Shown here: positions 1 to 14,591 of the stretch, in pieces
Layout of the letters: every line of letters begins with the position of its first letter
Position numbering within the stretch: the stretch's first letter is position 1
Source: Candidatus Adiutrix sp.
Lineage (GTDB): Bacteria > Desulfobacterota > Desulfarculia > Adiutricales > Adiutricaceae
DNA: 14,591 bases
NCBI GenBank assembly: GCA_031273445.1
Contig: JAISRV010000068.1
Span: 1-14,591 of the forward strand
Direction of reading: 5' to 3'
The notes under the pieces: model-generated
What the model was told of the DNA's origin: nothing
Database searches by the model: none
Seen by the model: only the letters and a program-made list of their open reading frames with translations
Translations under genes and position numbers: made by a program

Positions 1-42
1 TTTTACTACCGGGGCGGCTTGGCATCTTTTGCATTGAGGCAT
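1..42 (-). CDS. start of a CxxC (zinc-finger-like) protein, cut off by the left edge
   Basis: Only 14 codons are visible: an ATG at 42 opens a frame reading M-P-Q-C-K-R-C-Q-A-A-P-V-V-K that runs off the window. An AAGGA about 10 bases upstream could be its ribosome binding site, and a good -10 box lies just beyond. In-frame ATGs at 60 and 72 are alternatives; the one at 72 has GGAGG and GGGG upstream, so the protein may be 6 or 10 residues longer. A Cys-x2-Cys at the very N terminus followed by Ala/Val-rich residues resembles the N-terminal zinc finger of TtcA/TtuA-like tRNA sulfurtransferases, but 14 residues cannot establish this. The gene lies downstream of namZ in the same direction. Confidence 0.4.
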   Translation of the reverse strand, partial: MPQCKRCQAAPVVK

Positions 43-70
43 AATTGCACCATCCTTCATTTGATGGATC

Positions 71-99
71 ATTATACCCCTTTCCTCCATATTTATCTA
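71..99 (-). promoter_or_regulatory. candidate sigma-70 promoter for the left-edge gene
   Basis: On the minus strand a perfect TATAAT (71-76) is preceded, after a 17-base spacer, by TAGATA (94-99), which matches four of six positions of the -35 consensus. Transcription would begin near 64, just before the ATGs at 60 and 42. The purine-rich GGAGGAAAGGGG in the spacer could instead be the ribosome binding site for the ATG at 72, in which case the TATAAT is coincidental. Confidence 0.4.
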
Positions 100-152
100 T
101 CTTTATGTGAACACTCTCCAATTTATTTCTATGACGCACACCCATCGCCGAC

Positions 153-174
153 CCCGGCGGCGCGGATCGCCGGG
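153..174 (-). other. GC-rich hairpin downstream of namZ
   Basis: Perfect 7-bp inverted repeat (153-159 with 168-174, loop 8) about 30 bases after the namZ stop. No T-run follows on either strand, so it is not a standard intrinsic terminator; it could mark the 3' end of the operon transcript or block exonucleases. The rest of 1-202 holds only the promoter and partial gene listed separately. Confidence 0.3.
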
Positions 175-202
175 AACAGCCTTTATGGACGCGGCGCCGT
201 CA

Positions 203-1372: not shown

Positions 1373-1376
1373 GACT

Positions 1377-2255
1377 TTATGAGCCGCTCCCGCCGGAAAG
1401 GCCGGGCGCCCTCTGGCAAGAAGGGCAATAATGGGCGCCGCGCCCGCCGACCACAATGCGCTTGACGACTCCGCGGCAGACGGGACAGGGCTCTCCGGCC
1501 CTTCCGTAGACTTTATGGCTTTTCTGAAACGAACCCCCGCCTTTCAAGCCCTGGTAATTGCTGGTGGTCGAGCCGCGCGCCCTGATGGAGGCGGAAAGAA
1601 TGCGCCGGATTTCCCTGAGCAGCAGGTCGGATTGAGCCCTGGTCAGGGCGCGGGCGGGCGCAAGAGGCGAAAGGGCCGCGGCGAAGAGGCTTTCGTCGGC
1701 ATATATGTTGCCCAGGCCGGCCACGACCCGCTGATCCAGGAGAACGCTCTTCAGGCGGCCTTTTTTGGCTTTCAGACGCTCATGAAATTCGTCTTCGGAA
1801 ACGGCCAGCGCGTCCGGCCCCAGAGCCAGTTCCGCCAGAAAAAGGTCAAGTTCGGCCGCGTCGAAGGCCCGGAGACGGCCGAACTTGCGAATGTCGCGAT
1901 AGAACAGGGCCTCGCTTTCCGGCGGCAGGCCCGACAACCTGAAGGCGGCCCGGTCATGGGGAAGCCAGCCCCGCCCCCCCTGCCCTTCCGGCCAGGCGCC
2001 GAGATGAAACTGGCCCGTCATCTTCAAATGGACCAAAAGGGCCGCGGCCCCGTTTTCGCTTTTGAGGACAAAGTGAATCCACTTGCCGAGCCGCTTGACC
2101 CTGATGATTTCGGCGCCCGTCAACAGCCAGGCGAAACGCCCGGCCTCGCTGGCCACGATTTTGGCGCATGAGACCGACACTTCTTCTATCCGGCGTCCGC
2201 CGACGGCTTCATCAAGATCCGCGGCCATGGTTTCCGCTTCCGGCAGCTCAGGCAT
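1377..2255 (-). CDS. mutM: formamidopyrimidine-DNA glycosylase (Fpg/MutM)
   Basis: Bifunctional DNA glycosylase/AP lyase that removes 8-oxoguanine and ring-opened purines. The 292 residues match the family length. The N terminus MPELPEAE supplies the catalytic Pro2 and Glu3 after Met removal. Lys58 lies in RLGKW, HLKMTGQ (76-82) follows in the beta sandwich, and the helix-two-turn-helix carries LGNIYADE (181-188) with its DNA-contacting Asn183. The C-terminal zinc finger is complete: Cys257, Cys260, Cys277 and Cys280, with Arg272 in the GRGAHYC finger turn. Nei-type enzymes lack the PELPE start, which settles the assignment. GGAGGGG sits 3 bases before the ATG. The gene starts 22 bases after the cobD stop and ends 4 bases before namZ, probably as part of the sppA-to-namZ transcript. 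Confidence 0.96.
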   Translation of the reverse strand: MPELPEAETMAADLDEAVGGRRIEEVSVSCAKIVASEAGRFAWLLTGAEIIRVKRLGKWIHFVLKSENGAAALLVHLKMTGQFHLGAWPEGQGGRGWLPHDRAAFRLSGLPPESEALFYRDIRKFGRLRAFDAAELDLFLAELALGPDALAVSEDEFHERLKAKKGRLKSVLLDQRVVAGLGNIYADESLFAAALSPLAPARALTRAQSDLLLREIRRILSASIRARGSTTSNYQGLKGGGSFQKSHKVYGRAGEPCPVCRGVVKRIVVGGRGAHYCPSCQRAPGLSGGSGS

Positions 2256-2277
2256 TCGCCCCTCCGTAGTTCATTAT

Positions 2278-3366
2278 TCAGGCCAGCCGCAAGGCGCGCC
2301 GCAAAGCCATGATCAGCGCCTCCACTTCGGACTCCGGCCGCACGGCCAGCCGCAGGAAGCCCGGCCCCAAACCCCGAAAATTAGAGGCGTCCCGAACAAG
2401 CAGGCCTTGATTGAAGAGCGAGGTCAACAACGCTTGATGATCGATTTCCGGGCGTAGCTTCAAAAGCACATAGTTGGACTCGGACGGGAACACGCGGCCG
2501 AGGCCCAATTCCGAGAGCGCCTGAACCAGCGTATTTCGAAGCCGGGCCACGGCTGCCGCGCTCTGTTCCCTGAAGCCCGTCCGCGCCAGGCAGAAATGAC
2601 CGGCGGCGACGGCCAGGCTGGAGATGGACCAGGGCTCGACCAGAGGGCTCAGCGCGCCTATGGTTTCAGGGTGGGCGGCCATAAAGGCCAGGCGCAGACC
2701 GGGCAAGGCGAAAATCTTGGTCAGCGACCGCAGCACAATAAGTTTTTTATTTTTCCGCGCCAGAGGCAAAAGGGAATGCCCCGTCCCGGTAAAATCTATA
2801 AAAGCTTCATCGGCGATCAACCAGATGCCGCGCCTGTCGCACTCGTCGGCCAGCTCAAGCAAAAGATCGCCGGGCGTCAGGCGCCCGGTCGGGTTGGCCG
2901 GGTTGGCCAGAAAGACGGCGCCGGGGCCTGCCTCGAAAAGTCGTTTCAGGGTGTTCCCGGTCGTCAGCCAGTCGTCGTCAGGTCTGGTCAGAACATATTC
3001 AGCCTTAAGGCCTCCGCAGGTCAGCGCCGCCTCATATTCGGCAAAGGCCGGCCCTATAATCGCCGGAGCCCTGAAATCCAGGGCCCGGCATATCAGGTAC
3101 AGCTGCGGGGTCGAGCCTGCGCCGGGCATAATGCAGGTCGGCGGCAGATTCGCCATGACGGCCAATCCGTCACGGAGACTGGCGGCGTCGGCTTCAGGAT
3201 AGTGCAGGGTGAGGTCGAAGTCGCGGAACAAGGCCTCCTTCAGCCCCGGCGGCTGCCCCAGCGGGTTAATATTGGCGGAAAAATCAATAATTTCTGACCA
3301 GTCGCGCCCCAGCGCCCGCGCCGCCTCCACGACCTTGCCGCCATGTGCGGGAATTTTATTTTTCAC
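2278..3366 (-). CDS. cobD: threonine-phosphate decarboxylase (CobD, PLP enzyme)
   Basis: A fold-type I PLP enzyme of the histidinol-phosphate aminotransferase-like group. CobD decarboxylates L-threonine phosphate to (R)-1-amino-2-propanol phosphate, the linker that CbiB attaches to cobyric acid. From the GTG at 3366 it has 362 residues, the usual CobD size, and starts with the typical HGG (8-10). Visible sites are FSANINPLG (29-37), NPANPTG (155-161), DEAF (186-189), the PLP lysine Lys217 in SLTKIF, and LRLAVRPE (338-345). The frame stays open to 3528, but that part lies inside cbiB; the GTG overlaps the cbiB stop as GTGA and fits the homology. CobD and HisC are hard to separate by motif alone; the adjacent cbiB, the HGG start and the length favour CobD. 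Confidence 0.92.
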   Translation of the reverse strand: MKNKIPAHGGKVVEAARALGRDWSEIIDFSANINPLGQPPGLKEALFRDFDLTLHYPEADAASLRDGLAVMANLPPTCIMPGAGSTPQLYLICRALDFRAPAIIGPAFAEYEAALTCGGLKAEYVLTRPDDDWLTTGNTLKRLFEAGPGAVFLANPANPTGRLTPGDLLLELADECDRRGIWLIADEAFIDFTGTGHSLLPLARKNKKLIVLRSLTKIFALPGLRLAFMAAHPETIGALSPLVEPWSISSLAVAAGHFCLARTGFREQSAAAVARLRNTLVQALSELGLGRVFPSESNYVLLKLRPEIDHQALLTSLFNQGLLVRDASNFRGLGPGFLRLAVRPESEVEALIMALRRALRLA

Positions 3367-4343
3367 ATCCAGCCCAGCCTGCCGGTCAGAAACGACATGA
3401 CCGCGATACAGAGGGCCAGCATCAAAATAGCCGCCCCGACCATCAGGTTCTCCGCCGCGCGCACGGTTTCGGCGGCGGCTTCGCGGCCTCCCGCGCAGAT
3501 GACGGGCTTTTCCCGCCTGAGGCCGCAATAATAACTGGGGCCGCCCAGCCAGACCCCCAGCGCCCCGGCCATGGCCGCTTCCGGATGACCGGAGTTGGGG
3601 CTGTCGTGGAGGCGGCCGTCGCGCCGCCAGACGGTCAACCCGGCTCTCCAGTCATAGCCCTGAAGACGGGCGGACAGAACCAGAAGAAGAGCCGAGAGCC
3701 TGGCGGGAATAAAGTTGGCCGCATCGTCGAGTTTGGCCGCGAAACGGCCCAGGTCGACATAGCGCTCGTTGCGATAACCGATCATGGAGTCAAGGGTATT
3801 GACGGCTTTGTAGCCCCAGGCCAAAATCGGCCCACCCAGGGCCAGATAGAACATAGGCGCGACCAGGCCGTCGGAGAGATTCTCCGCCAGGGTTTCCGCC
3901 AAGGCGCGGCGAATGGAAGCCTCATCGAGATTGGCCGTGTCGCGGCCCACCACCCAGGCCAGACGCTGGCGGGCTTCATCGATAAACCCGCCCGCCAAAG
4001 CTTTCTCCACCCGCCAGGTCTGAAAATAAAGGTCTTTGAGACAGATGGCGCTGTAGGCCAGATAAACCGAGGCGACAAACCAGACCACAGGGCTGATGAA
4101 TGAGGCGGCGCCGGAAATCAGGGCGACCGCGGCCATGGCCGCGGCGACCGCGAAGAGGGCCAGAACCGCCCCGGCCAGGCGCGCCGCCGCCGGCGAAAGA
4201 GGCTGAGCGCCGGAGCGTGAGCGAATCTTTTTCTCGCCGAAGGCGATCATCTTCCCGATGAAACGCACCGGGTGCGGCCAGCGCTGGGGATCGCCCAGCA
4301 TCCAGTCGCAGATGAAAGCGATTATGGTGATCAAGGCGGCCAT
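3363..4343 (-). CDS. cbiB: adenosylcobinamide-phosphate synthase (CbiB)
   Basis: Integral membrane enzyme that joins aminopropanol (or its phosphate, made by CobD) to adenosylcobyric acid. The 326 residues are close to the usual length of about 320. Characteristic segments are DWMLGDPQRWPHPVRFIG (13-30), VGRDTANLD (132-140), ALAETLAENLSDGLVAPMFY (147-166), NTLDSMIGYRNERY (182-195), GRFAAKLDD (199-207) and SPNSGHPEAAMAGALG (248-263). Hydrophobic stretches near 2-12, 55-78, 82-101 and 299-318 fit a multi-pass protein. The ATG at 4343 shares its A with the sppA stop (TGATG), and the 3' end overlaps the cobD start (GTGA), so translation is probably coupled on both sides. A longer frame to 4460 lies within sppA and is rejected. 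Confidence 0.95.
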   Translation of the reverse strand: MAALITIIAFICDWMLGDPQRWPHPVRFIGKMIAFGEKKIRSRSGAQPLSPAAARLAGAVLALFAVAAAMAAVALISGAASFISPVVWFVASVYLAYSAICLKDLYFQTWRVEKALAGGFIDEARQRLAWVVGRDTANLDEASIRRALAETLAENLSDGLVAPMFYLALGGPILAWGYKAVNTLDSMIGYRNERYVDLGRFAAKLDDAANFIPARLSALLLVLSARLQGYDWRAGLTVWRRDGRLHDSPNSGHPEAAMAGALGVWLGGPSYYCGLRREKPVICAGGREAAAETVRAAENLMVGAAILMLALCIAVMSFLTGRLGWM

Positions 4344-5371
4344 CAGTAGACGTTTGAGCCGAAGTCCGGCTGATAGATGTATTTCAGGGAAAATCCCGGC
4401 GTCAAAGCCGGAGGCAGGGCGAGGCCGATATTCGTTTTGCTGGCGATGAAAGTCTGCCACCAGGGTTTACGGCCGTCGTCAATAGTCAGTTCAGGGCGCT
4501 TTCCGGCCTCCAGTCCGCCCATTTTAGCCGCCCGCGCGACCGCGTCCTCAAAGCCGCCGACTTCATCGACCAGGCCCAGTTTAACCGCTTCGGCGCCGCT
4601 GTATATCCGGCCGTCGGCCAGCGCCCTCACGGCCGCCTCGCCCAATTTCGGCCGCCCGGCGGAAAGGTCGCCGAGAAACTGTTCGTAGACTTCATTCACC
4701 ATTTTTTGCAGAAGAGCGCGCTCATTTTCACGCATCGCCCGAAACGGAGACCCGATATCCTTGTATTCGCCGCTTTTTATGACCTGACTTTTCAGGCCGA
4801 TTTTCTCCATGGTCCCTGAGACTTCCACGCTTTGCATGATCACGCCGATGGAGCCGGTTATGGTGCCGGGGTTGGCCATGATGAGGTCGCCGGCCGCGGC
4901 GATGTAAAGTCCGCCGGAAGCCGCGATGGAGCCCATGGAAACGACCACCGGCTTTTTCATATTTTTCACGGCCTTATATATTTCCTGGCAGGGGGCGACG
5001 CCGCCGCCGGGGGAGTTGACGCGTATGACCACGGCCCTGATGTTAGAATCTTCATTAAAACCGCGCAAAATATCGGTAGCCCAGATCGAACCTGTGATTT
5101 CGTCTTCTATCACCAGAACGCCGACCCCGGGGGCCCTGGTCAGCGAACCGACGGAACCGAGGCTGTCGATCACATAAGTCAGGATATAAGCGCAGGCGCC
5201 GATTACGGCCAAACCGAAAAGCAGCGTCGCCATCGGCCAACCCATGCCGCCTCGGACGGGCCGGCCCTTCTTCTGGCCCGGATTCGCAGATACAGGGGTC
5301 GCGGCGGTCTTTTGATGGTCGTCTTCTACGGTTCGGCCGGCCTGCCAGGCCTGCCAGTCTTCGTGTCGCAT
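4343..5371 (-). CDS. sppA: signal peptide peptidase SppA (short, 36K type)
   Basis: Membrane-anchored serine protease of the ClpP/crotonase fold (family S49) that degrades signal peptides left in the membrane. The 342-residue length and single protease domain indicate the short form. A cytoplasmic N-terminal tail of about 45 residues precedes one transmembrane helix (47-67). Catalytic Ser152 lies in IAASGGLYIA and Lys204 in KSGEYKDIGSPFR, the Ser-Lys dyad of this family; RVNSPGGG (117-124) and ITGSIGV (171-177) are also typical. GGAGG lies 5 bases before the ATG. It follows rpsA after 102 bases that contain a probable terminator; rpsA followed by sppA is, as I recall, also found in Geobacter-type deltaproteobacteria. 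It leads the cbiB and cobD genes by stop/start overlap. The N-terminal tail is Gln/Lys-rich and not conserved. Confidence 0.95.
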   Translation of the reverse strand: MRHEDWQAWQAGRTVEDDHQKTAATPVSANPGQKKGRPVRGGMGWPMATLLFGLAVIGACAYILTYVIDSLGSVGSLTRAPGVGVLVIEDEITGSIWATDILRGFNEDSNIRAVVIRVNSPGGGVAPCQEIYKAVKNMKKPVVVSMGSIAASGGLYIAAAGDLIMANPGTITGSIGVIMQSVEVSGTMEKIGLKSQVIKSGEYKDIGSPFRAMRENERALLQKMVNEVYEQFLGDLSAGRPKLGEAAVRALADGRIYSGAEAVKLGLVDEVGGFEDAVARAAKMGGLEAGKRPELTIDDGRKPWWQTFIASKTNIGLALPPALTPGFSLKYIYQPDFGSNVY

Positions 5372-5379
5372 CTAGGCCT

Positions 5380-5417
5380 CCAAAACAAAGGCCGCGGGGG
5401 ATTATTCCGGCGGCCTT
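5380..5417 (-). terminator. intrinsic terminator after rpsA
   Basis: On the minus strand an 8-bp perfect stem AAGGCCGC/GCGGCCTT (5410-5417 with 5388-5395, 14-base loop that can pair further) is followed directly by TGTTTT, with the last stem bases adding TT. It lies 57 bases after the rpsA stop. Its T-tract runs straight into the GGAGG of sppA, so the hairpin could act as an attenuator of sppA as well as a terminator of rpsA. Confidence 0.6.
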
Positions 5418-5433
5418 CGCGCAGTTTGCAGAA

Positions 5434-5464
5434 CTCCCGGGCGACGGCTGTCGCCGCCAGGGAG
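5434..5464 (-). other. strong hairpin in the rpsA-sppA gap
   Basis: An outer 5-bp stem CTCCC/GGGAG (5460-5464 with 5434-5438) encloses a perfect 6-bp stem GGCGAC/GTCGCC (5450-5455 with 5440-5445) with a 4-base loop AGCC and a small internal loop. No T-run follows. Lying between the rpsA stop and the terminator, it could protect the rpsA 3' end or help set the balance between rpsA and sppA. Confidence 0.45.
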
Positions 5465-5473
5465 CTCATTGTC

Positions 5474-7315
5474 TCACTTGTCTTCGTCCTCGCCGGAGTT
5501 GTTGTTCTGACGGGCCGCGAAAGCTTTGGAGAGCTGTTCGCCGAGAACGGAAACGGAACCGGCACCGCCGCTGGAGCGGGAACTGTCTGAATAGTCCTTA
5601 TACAGACGCTCATCGTCTTCTTTTTTCATGCGCTTGACCGACAGGCCTATTTTATGATCCGCAGCGGAGATGGAGATGACCTTGGCGACCACCTCGTCGC
5701 CTAGATTGTAGGATTCGGACAAGGGTTTGCCCTTGGGCTGACCGGATTCTGAGACGTGAATCAGACCTTCGACGCTCTCGGCCAGTTCCACGAAAAGCCC
5801 GAAGTCGGTGATGTTGGTCACTTTGCCGGAGACGGTTTCGCCGACGGGGAACCTGGCCACGGCCACGCTCCAGGGGTCTTCCTCAAGCTGTTTGATGCCC
5901 AGGGAAAAACGCTCCTGATCACGGTCAATGGCCAGAATCAGCGCCCGCACCGAGTCGTTTTTCTTGAAGACTTCGGAGGGGTGTTTATACCGGCGGGTCC
6001 AGGAAATGTCGGATATGTGCACCAGACCGTCAATGCCCTCATCAATGCCTATAAATACGCCGAAATCAGTGATGTTCTTAATTTTCCCCTCAATGATGGT
6101 GCCGATGGGATAACGCTCGGCCACCGTGTCCCAGGGGTTGGGCTCCACCTGCTTCATGCCCAGGGAAATACGGCGGGCGTCCGTGTCGACTTTGAGGATC
6201 ACGCACTCGACCACATCGCCGACCTTGAGAATGGAGGCGGGATTACGCACCTTGCGGGTCCAGGACATTTCCGAGACGTGAATCAGGCCTTCAACCCCCT
6301 TGTCGAGCTCCACGAAGGCGCCGTAGTCGGCCAGCGAGACCACCTTGCCCGTAACCTTGTCGCCCACGCCGTAACGGTTGGCCGCGGTGATCCAGGGGTC
6401 TTCCTGAAGCTGCTTGACCCCCAGGGAGACCCGGGACTTTTCGCGATCGAAGGAAAGAACTTTGACGGTCGTCTTGTCGCCCACGGAAAACAGCTCCGAG
6501 GGATGAGTCAGGCGGCCCCAGGACATGTCGGTGACGTGCAGAAGGCCGTCAAGGCCGCCCAGATCAATAAACGCGCCATAATCAGTGAGGTTCTTGACCA
6601 CGCCTTCGACCACCGAGCCCACTTCCAGGGTGGACAGCGTTTCCTGCTTCTGGGTTTCGCGCTCGACTTCCAGAAGCGCGCGCCGGCTCAAAACGACATT
6701 GCCGCGGCGCTTGTTATATTTAAGAACCTTAAAGTCAAAGGTCTGGCCGACGAGATTTTCAAGATTCTTGATCGGGCGGCTGTCGACCTGGGAACCGGGC
6801 AGAAAGGCCGGCACTCCGATGTCCACGGAAAGACCGCCCTTGACCCTGGAAGTCACCGTGCCGCTGATCACGCCGTCGTCGTTATGGATGCGGGTGATCT
6901 CCTCCCAGACCTTGATCTTGGCGGCTTTGTCCTTGGAAAGGATGATTTCGCCGTCATCGTCGTCCCAGCGCACTAAAAGAGCTTCCACCTTATCGCCGAT
7001 CTTGACCTCAATGTTGCCGTCGGCGTCTTGAAACTCTTGCAGCAAAATGCGCCCTTCCGACTTGGCGCCCACGTCCAGCATGACATATTCCTTGCCGATC
7101 TGAACGACCACGCCTTTTAAGACCTCGCCTTCGGAAAGCGATTTGAAGCTCTCTTCATAAAGCTGATCCATGGCCATCCCCTGCTCTGACTGGCCCTGGG
7201 GTTCGCCGTTTTCAGTTTCGCCCGCAAACTGATCCTGCGTGTTGTCGCTGTCGGTTTCGCCCGCAAATTGATCCTGCGTGTCGTCGCTGTCGTGGTTGGT
7301 GAAGTTGTTTTCCAT
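5474..7315 (-). CDS. rpsA: 30S ribosomal protein S1, six S1 domains
   Basis: RNA-binding ribosomal protein that helps the 30S subunit capture mRNA. Six S1 (OB-fold) repeats lie near residues 61-128, 148-212, 232-301, 317-388, 404-473 and 491-562. Repeats 3 to 5 carry the strong GxVxxLTDYGAF...GLLHVTDMSW-type pattern and are joined by the typical LGxKQLxxxPW linkers, as in full-length S1. The 613 residues exceed E. coli S1 (557) because of an acidic extension of about 45 residues at the N terminus and an acidic, Asn/Ser-rich tail. The extension contains two 13-residue repeats. The ATG at 7315 has only GGGG nearby as a ribosome binding site; starting at Met47 or Met49 would remove the extension and cannot be excluded. 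It lies after cmk, a common arrangement, but 337 bases away and with its own candidate promoter. Confidence 0.96.
   Translation of the reverse strand: MENNFTNHDSDDTQDQFAGETDSDNTQDQFAGETENGEPQGQSEQGMAMDQLYEESFKSLSEGEVLKGVVVQIGKEYVMLDVGAKSEGRILLQEFQDADGNIEVKIGDKVEALLVRWDDDDGEIILSKDKAAKIKVWEEITRIHNDDGVISGTVTSRVKGGLSVDIGVPAFLPGSQVDSRPIKNLENLVGQTFDFKVLKYNKRRGNVVLSRRALLEVERETQKQETLSTLEVGSVVEGVVKNLTDYGAFIDLGGLDGLLHVTDMSWGRLTHPSELFSVGDKTTVKVLSFDREKSRVSLGVKQLQEDPWITAANRYGVGDKVTGKVVSLADYGAFVELDKGVEGLIHVSEMSWTRKVRNPASILKVGDVVECVILKVDTDARRISLGMKQVEPNPWDTVAERYPIGTIIEGKIKNITDFGVFIGIDEGIDGLVHISDISWTRRYKHPSEVFKKNDSVRALILAIDRDQERFSLGIKQLEEDPWSVAVARFPVGETVSGKVTNITDFGLFVELAESVEGLIHVSESGQPKGKPLSESYNLGDEVVAKVISISAADHKIGLSVKRMKKEDDERLYKDYSDSSRSSGGAGSVSVLGEQLSKAFAARQNNNSGEDEDK
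7215..7292 (-). repeat. two 39-bp tandem repeats in the rpsA N-terminal coding region
   Basis: 7215-7253 and 7254-7292 are identical at 37 of 39 positions. They encode DSD-N/D-TQDQFAGET twice within the acidic N-terminal extension of S1. One of the two differences changes Asn to Asp, the other is silent, which suggests a recent in-frame duplication. Confidence 0.9.
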
Positions 7316-7413
7316 GTTTACCCCGGATAAAATTTAACCTGAAGAAAGAAATTATCTTTCCCGTTCCTTCATAAAGTTCCGCAACTGGGAGAATAAGATG
7401 AAACGGCGTAACG

Positions 7414-7435
7414 GACCGGGAAAAAATACCCGGCC
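7414..7435 (-). other. hairpin in the rpsA leader
   Basis: On the minus strand GGCCGGG (7429-7435) pairs with CCCGGTC (7414-7420), seven pairs with one G-T, around an 8-base T-rich loop. The T-run is in the loop and not after the stem, so it is not a terminator. Confidence 0.45.
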
Positions 7436-7487
7436 ATTTGCCCCTGCGGACCGGAACCGCCCCCGCTTCATTTAAGATTTTGTTCCC

Positions 7488-7508
7488 GCGGAGATCCGCC
7501 TCAAGGCG
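7488..7508 (-). other. overlapping alternative hairpins in the rpsA leader
   Basis: On the minus strand CGCC-TTGA-GGCG (7497-7508) and GCGGA-TC-TCCGC (7488-7499) share the bases 7497-7499, so only one can form at a time. Mutually exclusive stems are typical of attenuators or protein-switched leaders; both are short, so the point is suggestive only. Confidence 0.4.
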
Positions 7509-7542
7509 AAAGTCCTTTTACCGAACTTATCTGAACTTCATA

Positions 7543-7572
7543 TCTATATCAAACATTGACGATGTTTTTCAA
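7543..7572 (-). promoter_or_regulatory. candidate rpsA promoter
   Basis: On the minus strand TTGAAA (7567-7572) and TATAGA (7543-7548) are separated by 18 bases in an AT-rich setting, matching five and four consensus positions respectively. It lies about 230 bases before the rpsA ATG and is the best sigma-70-like candidate I found between cmk and rpsA. Confidence 0.5.
7551..7567. promoter_or_regulatory. operator-like dyad between the -35 and -10 boxes
   Basis: Perfect 6-bp inverted repeat AAACAT-TGACG-ATGTTT filling almost the whole promoter spacer. A protein bound there would block RNA polymerase. No regulator gene is nearby, so the ligand is unknown, and a 6-bp dyad in AT-rich DNA can occur by chance. 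Confidence 0.35.
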
Positions 7573-7606
7573 GTCTTTTTTTAGCGCTGACCGCCCCACT
7601 GAAGCG

Positions 7607-7638
7607 ACATATTGAAGCATAATATAATAACATATTGA
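7607..7638. repeat. spaced direct repeat upstream of the rpsA promoter
   Basis: The 9-mer ACATATTGA occurs at 7607-7615 and again at 7630-7638, 23 bases apart (about two helical turns). A related AAACATTGA (7 of 9 matches) lies at 7551-7559 in the promoter dyad. This could be a set of binding sites, or chance in AT-rich DNA. Confidence 0.4.
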
Positions 7639-7652
7639 CTTTAATATTTATT

Positions 7653-8342
7653 TTATTTGAAGCCAAAAAAGCGGTTTCTAAAGGCGTTTACCATAACCTT
7701 CAGAACCCCGTCAATGGTCAGGTTGGTCGAGTCTATGGTCAGGGCGTCCGGAGCCGCCTTCAAAGGAGACGCTTCCCGGCGGCAGTCGGCCTGATCGCGT
7801 TCAAGGATATCGGCCAGCACCTCTTCGGAAGTAATATCCCGGCGGCAGGCGGACAATTCCCGGAAACGCCGCTCGGCTCTGAACTTCGGGTCGGCATAGA
7901 GGAAAAACTTGAGCCCGGCTTCAGGAAAGACCACTGTGCCCATATCGCGCCCCTCGGCCACTACGTCGCCTTTGGCGCCCAAAGACCGCTGGAGGCCCAG
8001 CAGAGCCTCGCGCACGCCAGGCCAGGCGGATATGGCGGAAGCGGCGAGAGAAATTTCCGGGGCGCGCAAAAGAGATGTGACGTCTCGACCGTCAACCATG
8101 ATGGACGTGCCGTCAGGGGTCGGCCGCGCGGTGAGGTCCAGGCTGGCCGCCAATTTTTCGGCCGCGGTTTGATCATGCGGGTCAAGGCCACGCTGAAGGG
8201 CGGTCAGGGCCAGAGCCCTATAGAGGGCGCCGGTGTCCAGATATATCCAGGTCAGACGCCGGGCCAGTTCGCGGGCCAGAGTCGATTTTCCGGCGCCCGC
8301 AGGCCCGTCTATAGTAATTATTTTTTTAATATTCTGATTCAT
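7653..8342 (-). CDS. cmk: (d)CMP kinase
   Basis: Phosphorylates CMP and dCMP with ATP in pyrimidine nucleotide supply. The 229 residues are typical of the bacterial Cmk family. The P-loop is GPAGAGKST (13-21), followed by LDTGALYRA (35-43), DGRDVTS (84-90), the conserved GRDMGTVVFPEA (131-142) and, near the end, RDQADCRREASPLKAAPDA (182-200), whose Arg/Asp positions form the NMP site and lid. The more usual Asp-Ser/Thr-x-Arg in this last motif is Asp-Cys-Arg here. The ATG lies 6 bases after the stop of the flavoprotein gene, with AAAGG just before it, so the two are probably co-transcribed. rpsA follows downstream, a common bacterial pairing, but here across a 337-base regulatory gap. Confidence 0.96.
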   Translation of the reverse strand: MNQNIKKIITIDGPAGAGKSTLARELARRLTWIYLDTGALYRALALTALQRGLDPHDQTAAEKLAASLDLTARPTPDGTSIMVDGRDVTSLLRAPEISLAASAISAWPGVREALLGLQRSLGAKGDVVAEGRDMGTVVFPEAGLKFFLYADPKFRAERRFRELSACRRDITSEEVLADILERDQADCRREASPLKAAPDALTIDSTNLTIDGVLKVMVNAFRNRFFGFK

Positions 8343-8348
8343 GAGCCT

Positions 8349-8954
8349 TTAATTGCGGTCTTGAGGGCCGGCGCCGGCCCTCATATTGCCGAAGGCCAGC
8401 CCGGCTTCGTAGACTTGCCGCAGTCGGTCAGGATCTTTCTCAAAGCCGCCCAGCCCTTCGATCTGCCTAAAAAAAAGGCTGTCGAAATGCCGGGGGAAAC
8501 CGATCGAGTCAAAAAAATATTTTATGCAAAGCCCCACCGGCAGGAACAGATCCTTGCCTTTCGTGGCCCCCAAGGCCAAGAGGAACCCCTTGCCCTCAGG
8601 GCGCAGGGTCTCCGTCTGCCCCAGGGCGTAACGACGCGACCACAAAGGCTGGGTGCGGTCGATGAGGGCCTTGCCTAAAGCAGGGACATCGTAGAAAAAA
8701 AGAGAGGTCGAGACGACGATCATGGGGGCCGCGGCCAGAAGCGGGTATAACCCGCCCATGTCGTCGCCGGAGATCACGCAGTCTCCGGTGGCTTCACAGG
8801 AACCGCAGCCCTGGCAGGGTTTGATCACATGATCGGAGACTGAAAAAGAAACTGTACAGGCGCCGGCGGAACGCGCGCCTTTAACGAATTCATCAAGCAT
8901 AACCGCGGAATTGCCGTTTTTACGCGGACTGAGGTGCAAAGCTAAAATATCCAT
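8349..8954 (-). CDS. flavodoxin-like iron-sulfur flavoprotein (NADPH-dependent FMN reductase family)
   Basis: A 201-residue flavodoxin-fold protein. The N terminus ILALHLSPRKNGNSAVML (3-20) is the FMN-phosphate binding loop of this family (S-P-R-x-x-G-N-S). A compact cysteine cluster Cys47-x2-Cys50-x2-Cys53-x5-Cys59 matches the CX2CX2CX4-7C motif of Isf-type flavoproteins, which hold a [4Fe-4S] cluster next to FMN. STSLFFYDVPALGKALIDR (82-100) is the second typical segment. Such proteins move electrons between ferredoxins and small acceptors in anaerobes; the true partner is unknown. A GGAAAG lies about 10 bases before the ATG. It starts 129 bases after the PHP gene, a gap in which I see no convincing terminator or promoter, and ends 6 bases before cmk. 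Confidence 0.85.
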   Translation of the reverse strand: MDILALHLSPRKNGNSAVMLDEFVKGARSAGACTVSFSVSDHVIKPCQGCGSCEATGDCVISGDDMGGLYPLLAAAPMIVVSTSLFFYDVPALGKALIDRTQPLWSRRYALGQTETLRPEGKGFLLALGATKGKDLFLPVGLCIKYFFDSIGFPRHFDSLFFRQIEGLGGFEKDPDRLRQVYEAGLAFGNMRAGAGPQDRN

Positions 8955-9083
8955 GACCGCAACTTTCCAGAGTTTTTTAAAGGGCTACAGACCAGGCTGT
9001 TGAATATCGCAACGCCTCGGCGACAAAAGTATTGTGATTTCCGGCTTTGACGAAATCAGACTTGATCTGTTTATTCGGCGAAG

Positions 9084-9980
9084 TCAATAGCTCATTTTTC
9101 GTTGAAGGCCGTCTAGCGCGTCCAGCCCCGCAAGGCTGTGTTCGATAGTCCAGCCTAAAGGCGACTGCGGCTTGCGGGGCCCGTGAAAATCAGAACCTCC
9201 GGTCGGCGTCAACCCGTATCGCCTGGCCAGACGGCTGAATAAAGCCGTTTGGCGTCGGTCATGAGTGGGGTGATAAACCTCCAGGCCGACCAAGCCGTGA
9301 TCGACCAGTTTTTCAATAACGGGCGCCAGTTCACTTTCGCCCGACAGCGCCAGACTGGCCGGATGGGCTAAAACAGGAGCCCAGCCTGCTTCGCGCAACA
9401 TGGTCAGCCCGCGTTCAGGGGCCAACTTCGCTTTCTCCACATAACCGGGGCCTCCGCGGCCCAGAAGCTTTTTAAAAACATCTTCGCTGGTCTGGAAACA
9501 ACCGCTCTCCACTAACGCGGCCGCGAAATGGGGGCGTCCGGTCTGCCCTCCGCCTGAAATTTCCAAAAGGCGCTCTCTGGAAATATGATACCCCAACTGA
9601 TCAAGTTTTTCCAGCATCCTGCGGTTTCGGTCGGCTCTAAAGGCTTTCAGCGCTTCCAACGACGCGGGAAGTCCCGGCGCGCCGCCGACGTTAAGCCCCA
9701 GAAGATGCATAGTCCCCGGATATAGAAGGCTGATTTCGACTCCGGCCAGAGCGACGACGCCGACGGCCGAGCCGGCCTCCAAGAATTCCGGCAGGCCGTC
9801 CACCGTGTCGTGGTCGGTCAGGGCCAGAAGCTTCAGCCCGGCCGCAACCGCCGCCGCCGCCAGAGCGGCGGGCGCAAGCTGGCCGTCAGAAGCCGTGGAA
9901 TGGCTGTGGAAATCAGCCAGCCCCGGCCAAACCGCGCCGCGAGGGGCCGGGCCCGGCGGACCCGCCGCGCCGGCGCTCAT
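9084..9980 (-). CDS. PHP-domain phosphoesterase (YciV/RNase AM-like)
   Basis: A 298-residue PHP-fold metallophosphoesterase of the group that includes E. coli YciV (RNase AM, a 5'-3' exoribonuclease) and 3',5'-nucleotide bisphosphatase. Metal-binding motifs occur in order: DFHSHSTASDG (23-33), LTDHDTVDG (54-62), GVEIS (80-84), HLLG (92-95), RPHFA (149-153), LAHP (204-207), LEVYHP (233-238) and GGSDFHG (261-267). The insert between GVEIS and LAHP, with its RPHFA motif, is typical of this group, which sets it apart from histidinol phosphatases. The ATG overlaps the stop of the biotin carboxylase gene as ATGA, so translation is probably coupled. Older annotation calls these proteins TrpH, but there is no tryptophan gene here. 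Substrate (nucleotide bisphosphate or RNA end) is not decided by sequence. Confidence 0.88.
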   Translation of the reverse strand: MSAGAAGPPGPAPRGAVWPGLADFHSHSTASDGQLAPAALAAAAVAAGLKLLALTDHDTVDGLPEFLEAGSAVGVVALAGVEISLLYPGTMHLLGLNVGGAPGLPASLEALKAFRADRNRRMLEKLDQLGYHISRERLLEISGGGQTGRPHFAAALVESGCFQTSEDVFKKLLGRGGPGYVEKAKLAPERGLTMLREAGWAPVLAHPASLALSGESELAPVIEKLVDHGLVGLEVYHPTHDRRQTALFSRLARRYGLTPTGGSDFHGPRKPQSPLGWTIEHSLAGLDALDGLQRKMSY

Positions 9981-11332
9981 TCGCCGGTCGCCTTCAAAAG
10001 CTCTTCAGCCAGTCCGGTATGAACGGCGCCTTCACGGAAAGGCGTGAACCTCATCAGCTTCCGAAGGAATGGAATGTTGGTCTTGACGCCTTCGACCGCG
10101 AAGTCGCCCAGGGCTTCATACATAAGGTCCAGGGCCTTTTCCCGGGCCTCGGCCTTCACTATCAGAAGAGCGATCATGGGGTCATAAAACGGCGTCACCG
10201 CGGCGCCTTCGGCAAAGCCGGTCTCGACCCTGAGGCCGGTTCCCCTAGGCGGCCGGAAAACTTTCAACCGACCCGGGGAAGGGAAAAACGTAACCGGGTC
10301 TTCGGCGTAGATGCGGGCCTCGACGGCATGGCCGGAGATACTGTCCGGCCGGTCGGGCATGGCCTCCGACAGCGGCAGACCCGCGGCCAGACGCACCTGG
10401 ACCGCCGCCAGGTCCACGCCGGCGACTTCTTCCGTCACGCCGTGCTCCACCTGCAGTCTGGGGTTGACTTCCAGAAAAGCGAAACCCGTCTCCGGCGTAT
10501 ACAGCGTCTCCACCGTGCCCAGATGGTCATAGCCCAGCGCGGACATGACGGCCGCGGCTCTTTCGGCCATGGCCTTCACCTGGTCCGCCGCCATAGCGGG
10601 CGCGCCGGCTTCCTCGACGACCTTTTGGCGGCGGCGCTGAGTGGAGCAGTCGCGCTCGAACAGATGAACGGCCCGGCCATTTTTGTCGGCCACGATCTGG
10701 AATTCCACATGGCGCGGATTTTCCATCAGCCTTTCCGCGTACAGCGAGGCGTCGGAAAAACTGCGGGCCGCCAGTTTAGCGGCCGACTCGATAGCCGCCG
10801 TCAGTTTTTCTTTTTCAAAAACCGGCGTCATGCCTATCCCCCCGCCGCCGCCGGCGGGCTTGATCAAGAGAGGGAAACCGAGAGCGGCGGCTTCCTCGGC
10901 CTGCCTGGCCGCATCTCCTTTCAACAGCCCGGTCGAGGGGCTCACGGGCAGGCCCTTTTGGGCCATCAGTTCTTTACAGGCGGTTTTGTCGCCCATAACC
11001 TTGAGCCATTTGGGGTCAGGCCCGATGAAGGCCAGGCCGGCCGCGGCCGTCTTTTCGGCAAAGGCGCTGTTTTCTGAAAGAAACCCGTAACCGGGGTGAA
11101 TGGCGTCTCCGCCGCATTTCACGGCCGCTTCTATTATGGCCGACTGATTCAAATAACTCTGCGGCGCCGGAGAGGGCCCGATCAGATATTTTTCATCGGC
11201 TTCATTCACGTAGGGCAGGTCAGAATCGGCTTCCGAATAAAGAGCCGCGCTTTTGACGCCCAAAACGCGCAAAGCGCGCACCAGCCGGGCGGCCACGGTT
11301 CCCCGGTTGGCAATAACGACCTTGTGAAACAT
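9977..11332 (-). CDS. stand-alone biotin carboxylase (AccC-like), divergent
   Basis: A 451-residue ATP-grasp enzyme that carboxylates biotin on a carrier protein with ATP and bicarbonate, as the AccC subunit of acetyl-CoA carboxylase or subunit A of two-part pyruvate carboxylase. HPGYGFLSEN (79-88), ATP-grasp lysines 116 and 158, GGGGGIGM (161-168), ENPRHVEFQ (204-212), EVNPRLQVEH (288-297) and GHAVEARIYAEDP (334-346) are present, including the biotin/bicarbonate-site Arg292, Gln294, Glu296 and Arg340. Several positions differ from E. coli AccC: NRGTVA for NRGEIA, GGIGM for GGRGM, QRRRQK for QRRHQK and VEHGVTE for VEHPVTE. No biotin carrier or carboxyltransferase gene lies beside it. It follows the sensor-fused synthase by 81 bases, and AAAGGAAA about 9 bases before the ATG is its likely ribosome binding site. 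Confidence 0.9.
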   Translation of the reverse strand: MFHKVVIANRGTVAARLVRALRVLGVKSAALYSEADSDLPYVNEADEKYLIGPSPAPQSYLNQSAIIEAAVKCGGDAIHPGYGFLSENSAFAEKTAAAGLAFIGPDPKWLKVMGDKTACKELMAQKGLPVSPSTGLLKGDAARQAEEAAALGFPLLIKPAGGGGGIGMTPVFEKEKLTAAIESAAKLAARSFSDASLYAERLMENPRHVEFQIVADKNGRAVHLFERDCSTQRRRQKVVEEAGAPAMAADQVKAMAERAAAVMSALGYDHLGTVETLYTPETGFAFLEVNPRLQVEHGVTEEVAGVDLAAVQVRLAAGLPLSEAMPDRPDSISGHAVEARIYAEDPVTFFPSPGRLKVFRPPRGTGLRVETGFAEGAAVTPFYDPMIALLIVKAEAREKALDLMYEALGDFAVEGVKTNIPFLRKLMRFTPFREGAVHTGLAEELLKATGE

Positions 11333-11413
11333 CGCATTATTTCCTTTATTTTTAGAGACAGCAGCTTAAGGTCTCAGGGCGCCGCGTTTACTCCGGGCTG
11401 ACGGAGAACCGGC

Positions 11414-13279
11414 TCATAAATCTTCTTGATCGTCTTCCGCCGCCGGGGACAGGTCTTCCGCCTCCATCTTGGCCAAGTCTTCAAAGCGGATATCCAGGCC
11501 CAGAATGCCTATTATTTCATCGTTATTGTCGCGGATGGGCCCTGACACGGTGATGCAAAGCGCCCCGGTGAAGCGGGAAGTGTAAAAATCGGTGACGTGA
11601 ATCTTGCCGTCTTCAATGGGTTTGACGTACCAGATGCGGTCGGAGAGGTTAGCCCCGACGCCCATGGTGGTGGAATTCATGAATTTCGACTTCTCGTTCA
11701 GCGAAACCACGTTGCGCGTCACTTTCACGCCTCTTTGGTCGGTGACGTACATAAACTGCACAAAGGGCGTCTCCGTCACCCACCGCTCCATCAGAGGCTC
11801 CTGCCTGGCCGGGTTCATTGAACGTATTTCAGGATTTTCGATCATTTCGCCTATGAGGCCCTGGGCCAGCTCGCGGGCCTTGGCCTTGAGACGGTCGAAC
11901 TGGGAGACGAAGCAGCCGGGCAGGTAATGCCGGGCCAGCTTTTCCATTTCCTTGTTGGACATGTTGGTGCTGCGCCCGTCGGAATATTCCCTGGCGATGG
12001 CCTTGTTCATTTTTATTATGCCCGGGTGGCGCTTGTCCAGAGCATTTTCGCCGGACAGATTCAGCCGGCGGTTGAGCCAGTGGGTCACGCCCGCCACGCC
12101 GGACTTGTCGTTTATGGAAATGGCCGGCGACCGCCCGAGGATCAGTTCCGTGTCGAAGATGTTGTATATTTCCTCGTTTTTTAAAAGCCCGTCGGCGTGA
12201 ATGCCGGCCGAGGTGACGTTGAAGTCGCGGCCGACCAGCGGCTGATAAGGCGGAATTCTATGTCCTATCTCCTTTTCGAAATAGCGGGCCATGTCGGTGA
12301 TGGCGGTCAGGTCCATCTGACGCGTGGTTCCGGTCAGGGCCGCATATTCGACGGCCAGGGCCTCAAGGGGCGTGTTGCCGGTGCGTTCGCCGAAGCCCAG
12401 GAGCGTGCCGTTGACGGCGCCCAGACCGTAAAGCCAGGCGGCGGCGGCGTTAACGAAACCCTTATGGAAATCGTTATGCCCATGCCACTCCAGGTCGGCG
12501 CCGTTATAGCCGGCTTCGTCTATCAGGACGCGCACTAGTTTGCCGACCGAACGCGGCAGGGCCGCGCCGGGATAGGTCACCCCCATGCCCATCGTGTCGC
12601 AGAGGCGGATAATAATCTTTATGCCGCTCTCGTCGGACAGACGTTTGAGCTTCTGCGCGAAGGGCGCCGCCAAGCCGAAGACGTCGGCGCGGGTCACGTC
12701 CTCGAAATGGCAGCGCGGCGTTATGCCCAGGGCCAGCGCGTCCTTGACCAGGGCCAGGTATTTTTCCACGGCCTTGGCGCGCGTCAGGTTCAGCTTCATA
12801 TAAATATGATAGTCGGAAATGGAGGTCAGTATGCCGGTCTCGGTGAGGTTCATTTCTTTGACCAGCTTCAGGTCCTCGGCCGCCGCCCTGATCCAGCTGG
12901 TGATTTTGGGAAAAGCCAACCCCAGTTCCCGGCAGGCGTCGACGGCTTGGCGGTCTTTTTCGCTGTAGAGGAAAAATTCAGACTTGCGTATGACGCCTTC
13001 CGGCCCCCCGAGGCGCGAAAGAAACTGGAATATCCTGACGATCTCGGCCACGCTGTAGGGCGGGCGGGCCTGCTGGCCGTCACGGAAAGTGGTGTCGGTT
13101 ATCAGCAGTTCGCGGGCCGGCGCCAGGGACGGCTCGCTGCCGTCAAAAGTGATGCGCGGCACCTCGGAATAAGGAAAAATGGCCCGATACAGCTCCGGGT
13201 CTTCCCGGTCTATGATTTCAAGACGGCGCTGAGCTTTCCTGTTGTTGATCAGCAGGATGCTTTCATTGTCGGTCGTCAT
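11414..13279 (-). CDS. isopropylmalate/homocitrate synthase-like enzyme fused to a C-terminal Cache (PDC-like) sensor domain
   Basis: A 621-residue two-part protein. Residues about 55-410 form a DRE-TIM barrel of the alpha-isopropylmalate/homocitrate/citramalate synthase family: DTTFRDGQQ (62-70), HFEDVTRAD (191-199), CDTMG (227-231), the metal site HGHND (266-270), GFGERTGNTPLEAL (295-308) and SAGIHADGLLKN (357-368). GERxGN is typical of the acyl-CoA condensing enzymes. A helical stretch (about 440-495) leads to a domain (about 500-605) with YVTDQRG (511-517), NLSDRIWYV (544-552), YTSRFTGALCITVSGPIRD (566-584) and IIGILGLDI (589-597), the pattern of Cache/PDC ligand-binding domains. The LeuA regulatory domain is absent. 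No transmembrane segment is present, so the sensor is cytoplasmic. GAGG lies 7 bases before the ATG, 18 bases after aspS. Substrates cannot be read from sequence; leucine biosynthesis is unlikely without leuB/C/D nearby. Confidence 0.88.
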   Translation of the reverse strand: MTTDNESILLINNRKAQRRLEIIDREDPELYRAIFPYSEVPRITFDGSEPSLAPARELLITDTTFRDGQQARPPYSVAEIVRIFQFLSRLGGPEGVIRKSEFFLYSEKDRQAVDACRELGLAFPKITSWIRAAAEDLKLVKEMNLTETGILTSISDYHIYMKLNLTRAKAVEKYLALVKDALALGITPRCHFEDVTRADVFGLAAPFAQKLKRLSDESGIKIIIRLCDTMGMGVTYPGAALPRSVGKLVRVLIDEAGYNGADLEWHGHNDFHKGFVNAAAAWLYGLGAVNGTLLGFGERTGNTPLEALAVEYAALTGTTRQMDLTAITDMARYFEKEIGHRIPPYQPLVGRDFNVTSAGIHADGLLKNEEIYNIFDTELILGRSPAISINDKSGVAGVTHWLNRRLNLSGENALDKRHPGIIKMNKAIAREYSDGRSTNMSNKEMEKLARHYLPGCFVSQFDRLKAKARELAQGLIGEMIENPEIRSMNPARQEPLMERWVTETPFVQFMYVTDQRGVKVTRNVVSLNEKSKFMNSTTMGVGANLSDRIWYVKPIEDGKIHVTDFYTSRFTGALCITVSGPIRDNNDEIIGILGLDIRFEDLAKMEAEDLSPAAEDDQEDL

Positions 13280-13297
13280 CTTGGCGCCTCAAAAGTT

Positions 13298-14591
13298 TTA
13301 CCCATGACTATTGTCCTTTTTCGATTCGATTCTGAGCCCAAGCTCAAGGAGCTGCCGCGGGTCGACCTGGCCGGGGGCTTCGGTCAGGGGGCAGGCCCCC
13401 TTCTGGGTCTTGGGGAAGGCTATGACCTCCCGGATGGATTTTTCCCCGGCCAGGAGCATGACCAGGCGATCCAGGCCGAAAGCGCAGCCCCCGTGGGGCG
13501 GGGTGCCGTAGGACAGGGCCTCCAGGAAGAAGCCGAACTTTTGCCTGGCCTCCTCCTCCCCCAGGCCCAGCGTCTTGAAGACCCGGGCCTGGACGTCAGG
13601 GCGGTGTATGCGCAACGAGCCCCCGCCTATCTCGTTGCCGTTCAGGACAAGATCGTACGAAAGGGCCCTGACCTTTTCCGGGGCGGATTCCAGGAAATCC
13701 AGATCCTCCTCCCGGGGGGCGGCGAAGGGGTGGTGGACGGCCTGCCAGCGCTTGTCCTCCAGGGACCATTCGAACATGGGGAAGTCGGTCACCCAGGCGA
13801 AGGAGAATAGGCCCTCCCCGACGAGGGAAAGATCCTCGGCCAGCTTTGTCCGGACCTGGCCCAGGATCTGGGCCACCAGCGGGGCCCTGTCCGCCCCGAA
13901 AAACAGGATATCCCCCGTCTCCAGGCCCAGACTGGAGCTTAGGGCCTCCCTTTCCCCCGGAGCCAGGAACTTGGCCAGGGGGCCTTGCCAGCCCTCCGGA
14001 GAGAGGCGGATCCAGGCCAGGCCCTTGGCCCCCAGGCCCACGGCGAAGCCCACCAGATCGTCCAGCTGCTTGCGGGAGAGGAGGGAGGCCGCCCCCGGGG
14101 CCCTTATGGCCCGGACGGAGCCGCCAGATTTGAGGGCTTCGGCGAATACCTGGGCCTCCGATCCCGACAGTAGATCCGAGACGTCGGCTATGGGCAGCCC
14201 GTAGCGCAGATCCGGGCGGTCGGTCCCGTAGCGCAGCATGGCCTGGTCATAGCCCAGGCGGGGGAAAGGCCCCTCCGGCTCTTTTCCCAGGGCCTCCCGG
14301 AAGACGGCCTTGGCGTAGCCCTCCAGGATGTCGATTATCTCCTCCTGGGAGGCGAAGGACAGCTCCAGGTCCACCTGGGTGAACTCGGGCTGGCGATCGG
14401 CCCTCAAATCCTCGTCCCTGAAGCAGCGGGTTATCTGGATGTAGCGATCCAGCCCGGCCATCATCAGTATCTGCTTGAAGAGCTGGGGAGACTGGGGCAG
14501 GGCGAAGAAGCTTCCGGGGGACAGGCGGGAGGGCACCAGGAAATCCCTGGCCCCCTCGGGCGTGGACTTGGTGAGTATGGGGGTCTCCACC
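13298..14591 (-). CDS. aspS: aspartyl-tRNA synthetase, bacterial type (5' end outside window)
   Basis: Class II synthetase that charges tRNA-Asp (or also tRNA-Asn if non-discriminating). About 430 C-terminal residues are visible; the anticodon-binding OB-fold and the start of the catalytic core lie beyond the right edge. The frame at the edge opens with GTG, an internal valine in VETPILTKSTPEGARDFLVP, not a start. Numbering from that valine: class II motif 2 is RCFRDEDLRADRQPEFTQ (55-72), a GAD insertion domain, the mark of bacterial AspS, spans about 115-260, NGNEIGGGSLRIH (317-329) binds the aspartyl-adenylate, and motif 3 is GGCAFGLDRLVMLL (367-380). Alanine is almost always GCC and arginine often AGG, giving a composition unlike the neighbouring genes. 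It ends 18 bases before the sensor-fused synthase and may share its transcript. Confidence 0.97.
   Translation of the reverse strand, partial: VETPILTKSTPEGARDFLVPSRLSPGSFFALPQSPQLFKQILMMAGLDRYIQITRCFRDEDLRADRQPEFTQVDLELSFASQEEIIDILEGYAKAVFREALGKEPEGPFPRLGYDQAMLRYGTDRPDLRYGLPIADVSDLLSGSEAQVFAEALKSGGSVRAIRAPGAASLLSRKQLDDLVGFAVGLGAKGLAWIRLSPEGWQGPLAKFLAPGEREALSSSLGLETGDILFFGADRAPLVAQILGQVRTKLAEDLSLVGEGLFSFAWVTDFPMFEWSLEDKRWQAVHHPFAAPREEDLDFLESAPEKVRALSYDLVLNGNEIGGGSLRIHRPDVQARVFKTLGLGEEEARQKFGFFLEALSYGTPPHGGCAFGLDRLVMLLAGEKSIREVIAFPKTQKGACPLTEAPGQVDPRQLLELGLRIESKKDNSHG

Follow-up and report, generated by a model that had tools for sequence, protein, structure and literature searches.

Introduction

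The closest described counterparts of the gene treated here are found among condensing enzymes and among sensor proteins. LeuA, citramalate and homocitrate synthases are inhibited by the end-product amino acids of their own pathways, and the feedback inhibition of isopropylmalate synthase (IPMS) is exerted through its LeuA domain. Cache/PDC sensor domains are familiar from another setting, those of KinD, PctA and Tlp3 being extracytoplasmic double Cache domains of membrane receptors. According to excerpts of the literature, Cache domains are the main extracellular sensors of prokaryotes, with signalling outputs, only Diacid_rec and YkuI_C being principally intracellular, and single Cache domains have organic acids as their main known ligands (PMC4822843); KinD is a double PDC that binds pyruvate (PMC3831638, PMC8534201). 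A further excerpt describes a candidate gene of Clostridium thermocellum as 61% identical to the biochemically verified Re-citrate synthase of C. kluyveri and as adjoining an aconitase gene, with 13C labelling in C. thermocellum that agrees with Re-type activity (PMC6115520). Here we analyse a 14,591-nucleotide stretch of DNA from Candidatus Adiutrix sp. (GCA_031273445.1, contig JAISRV010000068.1, positions 1 to 14,591; hereafter the window), in which a single gene unites a condensing enzyme with a Cache/PDC domain.

The gene, on the minus strand like every other feature placed in the window below, spans 11414..13279 and, by its open reading frame (ORF), Pfam matches and structure model (mean predicted local distance difference test, pLDDT, of 86.2), encodes a 621-residue Re-citrate-synthase-like enzyme with one C-terminal Cache/PDC domain. 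Its DRE-TIM catalytic part is nearest to the clostridial Re-citrate synthases. We assign a probability of about 0.6 to the reading that this fusion makes citrate and is under the allosteric control of a small molecule bound in a predicted cytoplasmic pocket, the likely ligand being an amino acid, for instance glutamate.

With the Re-citrate synthase of C. kluyveri and Acetivibrio thermocellus (EC 2.3.3.3) the fusion shares the catalytic part, at 53% ungapped identity to the A. thermocellus protein, and the aconitase neighbour reported there (excerpt of PMC6115520) is found at some fusion loci; unlike the fusion, the relatives compared, of 449-487 residues, have no Cache domain (Pfam was run on two). 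LeuA resembles the fusion in its homologous barrel and in having a C-terminal ligand-binding domain, but it carries LeuA_dimer (PF08502) where the fusion has Cache, its substrate is expected to differ, and a separate LeuA is encoded in the same genome. The PDC fold is common to the fusion's Cache domain and those of KinD, PctA and Tlp3, which are double and belong to membrane receptors, whereas the fusion has one soluble module on an enzyme. In the EAL protein YkuI a Cache-like domain sits on a signalling (EAL) domain, in the fusion on an enzyme of central metabolism. A literature search, with subscription papers outside its reach, found no paper relevantly joining Cache with citrate synthase or IPMS, none among those listed on cytoplasmic, allosteric Cache domains that dealt with an enzyme, and none on citrate synthase in sulfate reducers under the name "histone-lysine N-methyltransferase", which many members bear. 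Re-citrate synthase activity is already known, and the HMGL and Cache Pfam tags are recorded in databases; some characterised enzyme may already carry the Cache domain, remarked on or not.

The catalytic part

The catalytic part (residues 15-457; 11909..13237) comprises an HMGL-like TIM barrel and the helices after it. The barrel matches PF00682 with 110.3 bits, a fold search with the model of the whole protein returns homocitrate and isopropylmalate synthases, and the identity to the 459-residue A. thermocellus protein (P0268) extends over 443 residues. In the DRE-TIM family the residues of the DTTFRDG motif have a catalytic or metal-related role and the histidines of HGHND bind metal. Here the two motifs lie at residues 62-68 (13076..13096) and 266-270 (12470..12484); R66, D67, H266, H268 and N269, like the HGHND motif as a whole, are invariant in 98 aligned rows, so that the RDG and HxHN residues that define HMGL/DRE-TIM enzymes are in place.

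P0268 is most likely the C. thermocellum gene of PMC6115520, judging by species, size and similarity, and by way of it the fusion is most likely a close homologue of a characterised Re-citrate synthase. Some relatives bear the database name "citrate (Re)-synthase" (P0096, P0100, P0150, P0260 and P0277). Judged by its relatives, the fusion likely makes citrate from oxaloacetate and acetyl-CoA, and would do so with Re stereochemistry.

The first-pass annotation, made from the DNA letters of the window, had called the protein an IPMS-like enzyme with a Cache/PDC sensor in place of the LeuA regulatory domain. The second half of this description holds, the first is not supported. None of the NCBIfam models for IPMS, citramalate or homocitrate synthases scores over its cut-off on the fusion protein (best, nifV at 151.7 against 462.9; for the IPMS equivalog, 108.9 bits against 532), and Pfam finds no LeuA domain (PF08502) in it. 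The same genome encodes a separate LeuA that carries its LeuA domain and exceeds two IPMS cut-offs (684.1 vs 532; 637.2 vs 598.7), as well as LeuC, and LeuA_dimer matches occur in 195 of the 197 genomes sampled from the window's phylum, 96 of the 97 carriers of an orthologue included. On these grounds an identity as isopropylmalate, homocitrate or citramalate synthase was rejected. The fusion is most likely not an IPMS, and its distribution, the neighbours at related loci and its closest named relative point to a (Re)-citrate synthase.

That members might already sit in databases under generic names was rightly suspected: many are named "histone-lysine N-methyltransferase" by NCBI (P0010, P0012, P0014, P0127, P0166 and others) and some "isopropylmalate/homocitrate/citramalate synthase". 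As Pfam tags only HMGL-like and Cache on the former, their name is an annotation error that has been propagated onto a likely citrate synthase. Elsewhere in the window's genome (L004:516-2346), a homocitrate-synthase-like enzyme seemingly occupies two adjacent overlapping ORFs, with the HMGL domain in one and HCS_D2 in the other.

Distribution and occurrence

If the fusion makes citrate, how is it distributed relative to the common Si-citrate synthase? The 197 genomes were scored for fusion-family orthologues (E <= 1e-60) and for full-length PF00285 as the mark of the Si enzyme; ten with partial, weak PF00285 matches only, two of which carry a fusion-family gene, were counted as without it. 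The fusion-family gene alone is present in 82 genomes, the full-length Si enzyme alone in 84, both in 15 and neither in 16, a complementary distribution with Fisher p 2e-23 when genomes are treated as independent and descent is ignored. The family thus stands in for Si-citrate synthase, though not strictly. Since Re-only and Si-only genomes coexist in seven families, repeated replacement of citrate synthase is suggested. The window's own genome, 71.7% complete, has no PF00285 match, and its aconitate hydratase scores over the NCBIfam cut-off. Separately, seven genomes lacking a fusion-family orthologue (G035, G069, G095 and G120 of family f36; G053, G107 and G151 of f17) have only a partial PF00285 match within a frame of 623-816 residues; these frames are perhaps ATP-citrate-lyase-type proteins, the sole citrate-related candidates there.

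The fusion is genuine and old. In the window's phylum, 94 of the 97 orthologous matches reach residue 605 or beyond; the other three are two proteins without a Cache domain (G013, G031) and a fragment ending at residue 334 (G125). A second phylum (Nitrospirae, that of locus L043) has the gene in 19 of 78 genomes, as 17 whole fusions, one split over two contigs and one cut at residue 486 by a contig end, and further fusions stand under records named Spirochaetes, Lentisphaerae, Omnitrophota, Elusimicrobia, Fibrobacteres and Termititenax. Bacillota (the phylum of L080) have 15 copies in 14 of 149 genomes, every one without the Cache domain. Because these clostridial relatives work without it, the domain is not needed for catalysis. 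In a quick barrel tree of 69 rows, whose outgroup is three paralogues from the window's genome on very long branches, the Bacillota forms make up two starred groups amid fusions; the Cache-less label requires three changes on this tree, of which the starred branches force just one.

The Re-citrate synthase of Syntrophus aciditrophicus was reportedly characterised by Kim and co-workers in 2013, and Smithella is close kin of Syntrophus. Since homologues named Smithella or Smithellaceae, of 627-631 residues, carry the Cache domain, the characterised S. aciditrophicus enzyme probably has it too.

The Cache domain

The single Cache/PDC sensor domain (residues 486-607; 11459..11824) is preceded by a linker (residues 458-485; 11825..11908) that is helical for the most part in the model and lies about where the Cache-less clostridial relatives stop, matches to them ending at 445-482. 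As a fold search with the whole model returned barrel matches, the domain was modelled separately; it then gave a PDC fold, in agreement with its Cache/PDC profile match, and the nearest structure is KinD, whose sequence match spans nearly the whole domain. The Pfam search, Cache profile and fold dispose of the idea that this region belongs to the barrel or is a LeuA domain that has diverged. The domain is one module of about 120 residues, where dCache_1AA sensors have two.

In the window protein no membrane segment is visible: the largest Kyte–Doolittle mean over a 19-residue window is 1.22, and other members reach 1.64. For this reason the Cache domain is most likely cytoplasmic, as the first-pass annotation had proposed, and not placed outside the membrane in the usual manner of Cache receptors.

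The predicted ligand pocket bears the signature R548-x-W550-Y551 ... Y566 ... D596 (11492..11638), delineated by conservation across fusion loci and by alignment with KinD. Counts were taken over 74 loci, leaving aside L052, L071, L073 and L084 with broken or cut frames, and over 240 proteins, the 120 best from each of two protein listings, window protein included. W550, S568, L574 and D596 are invariant in all 74 loci, T577 and Y/F551 are kept in 73 and R548 in 69; the domain alignment has five invariant columns, W550 and D596 among them. R548 falls opposite the arginine at which the wild-type chain of KinD and the chain titled R131A differ, and PctA has Trp, Tyr and Asp opposite W550, Y566 and D596. 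At the position of D596 the printed alignments show Asp in PctA and Ala in KinD.

An amino-acid-binding motif, [YFWL]x4[RK]xW[YFW] x13-17 [YFW] x27-34 D, is given in an excerpt of PMC11237719 (its Results print x3, its Methods x4); there the ligand's carboxylate is contacted by the first aromatic together with Arg and Trp, its amino group by the second Tyr together with Asp. The window protein has R548, W550, Y551, Y566 (gap 14) and D596 (gap 29), which suggests a pocket accommodating both an alpha-carboxylate and an amino group. Of the 74 loci, 69 contain the four-position core, as do 238 of the 240 proteins, vs 31 of 14,800 shuffles, and it is kept over about 45-80% identity. The full motif with x3 spacing is found in 0 of 74 loci and 0 of 240 proteins. 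Membership in dCache_1AA was rejected, in view of the incomplete full motif and the single module.

Is the core simply what Cache domains look like in these organisms? To test this, the top PF22673 loci were taken from the window's genome and 20 relatives, and the 25 frames from these 30 loci that matched the fusion family's Cache profile at E <= 0.01 were scored. All 16 fusions have the core, against one of nine other Cache proteins; the counts include the reclassification of L127 (253-residue frame, match 7e-51) from receptor to cut fusion, and would otherwise be 15 of 15 and 2 of 10. The core is therefore not a general trait of the Cache family there. The nine other proteins also have hydropathy peaks of 1.88-3.15, vs at most 1.33 in the fusions. 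The genome of the window itself has no PF22673 match besides the fusion.

Neighbouring genes and locus

Neighbours were compared at 80 related loci, the best of 590, a comparison that the first-pass annotation had proposed. An aconitase-superfamily ORF lies within five genes at 11 loci and an isocitrate-dehydrogenase-like ORF at eight, one or both types being present at 13. Ten such ORFs, from six loci, were scored against NCBIfam: neighbours at L056 and L057 exceed the aconitate hydratase cut-off, one at L034 that of NADP-isocitrate dehydrogenase, and those at L055 and L070 that of a "hydratase" model of the aconitase superfamily. In the window itself, no neighbour of aconitase or isocitrate dehydrogenase type was found.

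Upstream of the fusion gene, 18 bp ahead, is a partial aspartyl-tRNA synthetase gene (13298..14590); an aspS-like ORF lies upstream at 33 of the 80 loci, immediately so at 27, and in 21 loci an ORF of another family, which we take, by eye, to be HisS, lies upstream. Downstream, 81 bp beyond the fusion gene, is a stand-alone biotin carboxylase (9977..11332), below cut-off for all 25 NCBIfam models among the matches listed. It may be a subunit of a split pyruvate carboxylase, since PYC_OADA-type carboxyltransferase matches lie elsewhere in the genome. As no homologue (E <= 1e-10) was found among the ORFs of the 80 loci, many of which have short flanks, a conserved oxaloacetate-supplying partnership was dropped as evidence.

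Two further observations concern the assembly and the window at large. The first 123 residues recur, at 94% identity, at a contig edge (G000 contig C166:2-370), which suggests that the bin holds a second strain or that the gene is duplicated. At the other end of the window, an exo-beta-N-acetylmuramidase NamZ-like gene (203-2255) overlaps a formamidopyrimidine-DNA glycosylase gene.

Proposed mechanism and alternatives

An allosteric role, raised by the first-pass annotation, is the most reasonable reading of the fusion. We envisage that an amino acid binds the cleft of the Cache domain and that the linker helices (458-503) carry the binding change to the barrel; by the order of elements in the model, helices 460-503 would follow the catalytic part and precede the Cache sheet. 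Ligand binding would then lower the activity of the barrel, a feedback inhibition like that exerted by the LeuA domain on IPMS. By analogy the ligand could be glutamate, the end product of the branch from citrate to 2-oxoglutarate; glutamate is the best guess because citrate synthase is the committed step to it where the cycle stops at 2-oxoglutarate. The broader proposition, that in anaerobes from eight phyla or more the Cache domain of Re-citrate synthase binds L-glutamate, or an amino acid of its family, and that this closes the entry to the tricarboxylic acid cycle and glutamate, is tentative and on balance doubtful.

Several observations weigh against citrate synthesis under amino-acid control. 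The clostridial relatives do without the Cache domain in all 15 copies. The 197-genome test takes no account of descent, and the replacement of the Si enzyme is loose, with both enzymes in 15 of the 97 carriers and a full-length Si enzyme in six of 17 further genomes traced from fusion loci. The incompleteness of the source genome (71.7%) limits inference from genes not found there. As to the neighbours, isocitrate dehydrogenase is the best-scoring identity for the dehydrogenases at L049, L055 and L057, though below the cut-offs, and the dehydratase at L034 (by ORF size also at L036 and L042) is divided into a LeuC/LeuD-type pair; taken alone, such a pair would suit several pathways. As to the ligand, the window protein has A543 where the amino-acid motif has its first aromatic, the full motif with x4 spacing occurs in just 11 of 74 loci and nine of 240 proteins, and even the core is broken in five of 74. 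The fusion's Cache domain is single and those of the amino-acid sensors are double; the nearest structure, KinD, binds pyruvate, and the main ligands of single Cache domains are organic acids (excerpt of PMC4822843).

These last points lend some weight to the idea that the same enzyme senses a carboxylate without an amino group (pyruvate, acetate or a dicarboxylate), perhaps in feed-forward activation. We hold this to be unlikely, if well short of negligible: both the nearest fold and a near whole-domain sequence match lead to a pyruvate sensor, whereas D596 is invariant in 74 of 74 loci at a position whose counterpart touches the ligand amino group in amino-acid sensors (excerpt of PMC11237719) and is Ala in KinD. 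Because this position differs between PctA, an amino-acid sensor with Asp, and KinD, a pyruvate sensor with Ala, we prefer an amino acid; because the first aromatic is lost and the overall fold is KinD-like, a plain carboxylate could still fit. Alternatively, the Cache domain might have no ligand in the cell and serve as a fixed module for oligomerisation or stability. PDC/Cache domains often dimerise, the clostridial relatives manage without one, and the ligand is so far a prediction; yet the predicted ligand contacts W550 and D596 are invariant, and the core motif, kept at about 45-80% identity, is absent from eight of nine other Cache proteins of the window's relatives, which makes a fixed module rather improbable.

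That the protein is after all an isopropylmalate synthase (or a homocitrate or citramalate synthase) whose LeuA domain has been swapped for Cache seems very remote. The barrel belongs to the same superfamily and a LeuC/LeuD-type pair is next to the gene at L034, but the dehydrogenase after that pair exceeds the isocitrate dehydrogenase cut-off, L056 and L057 have aconitate hydratase, the NCBIfam scores, the true LeuA of the window's genome and the LeuA_dimer matches in 96 of 97 carriers speak against it, and the distribution is complementary to that of citrate synthase. An artefact, whether two mis-joined genes or a divergent LeuA domain taken for Cache, is hardly credible; nothing was found in its favour, and a mis-join is refuted by full-length fusions in 94 of 97 orthologues and by the 17 whole ones in a second phylum. 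None of the observations that the first-pass annotation had named as fatal to the fusion, namely a divergent LeuA domain, a part of the barrel or a sequencing error, was borne out.

Conclusion

The recurrent misannotation exposed here concerns an enzyme that, in 82 of the 197 genomes sampled, is present while a full-length Si-citrate synthase is absent. The question of its ligand is directly testable, since the residues of the pocket have been predicted and relatives that naturally lack Cache can serve as controls. If our reading is true, sulfate reducers, syntrophs and several uncultured phyla would have a class of citrate synthase with its own control mechanism, and the Cache domain, beyond its part in extracellular signalling, would be an ordinary allosteric module inside the cell too. 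A metabolic enzyme would then be under direct Cache control, and the domain would play for citrate the role that the unrelated LeuA domain plays for leucine.
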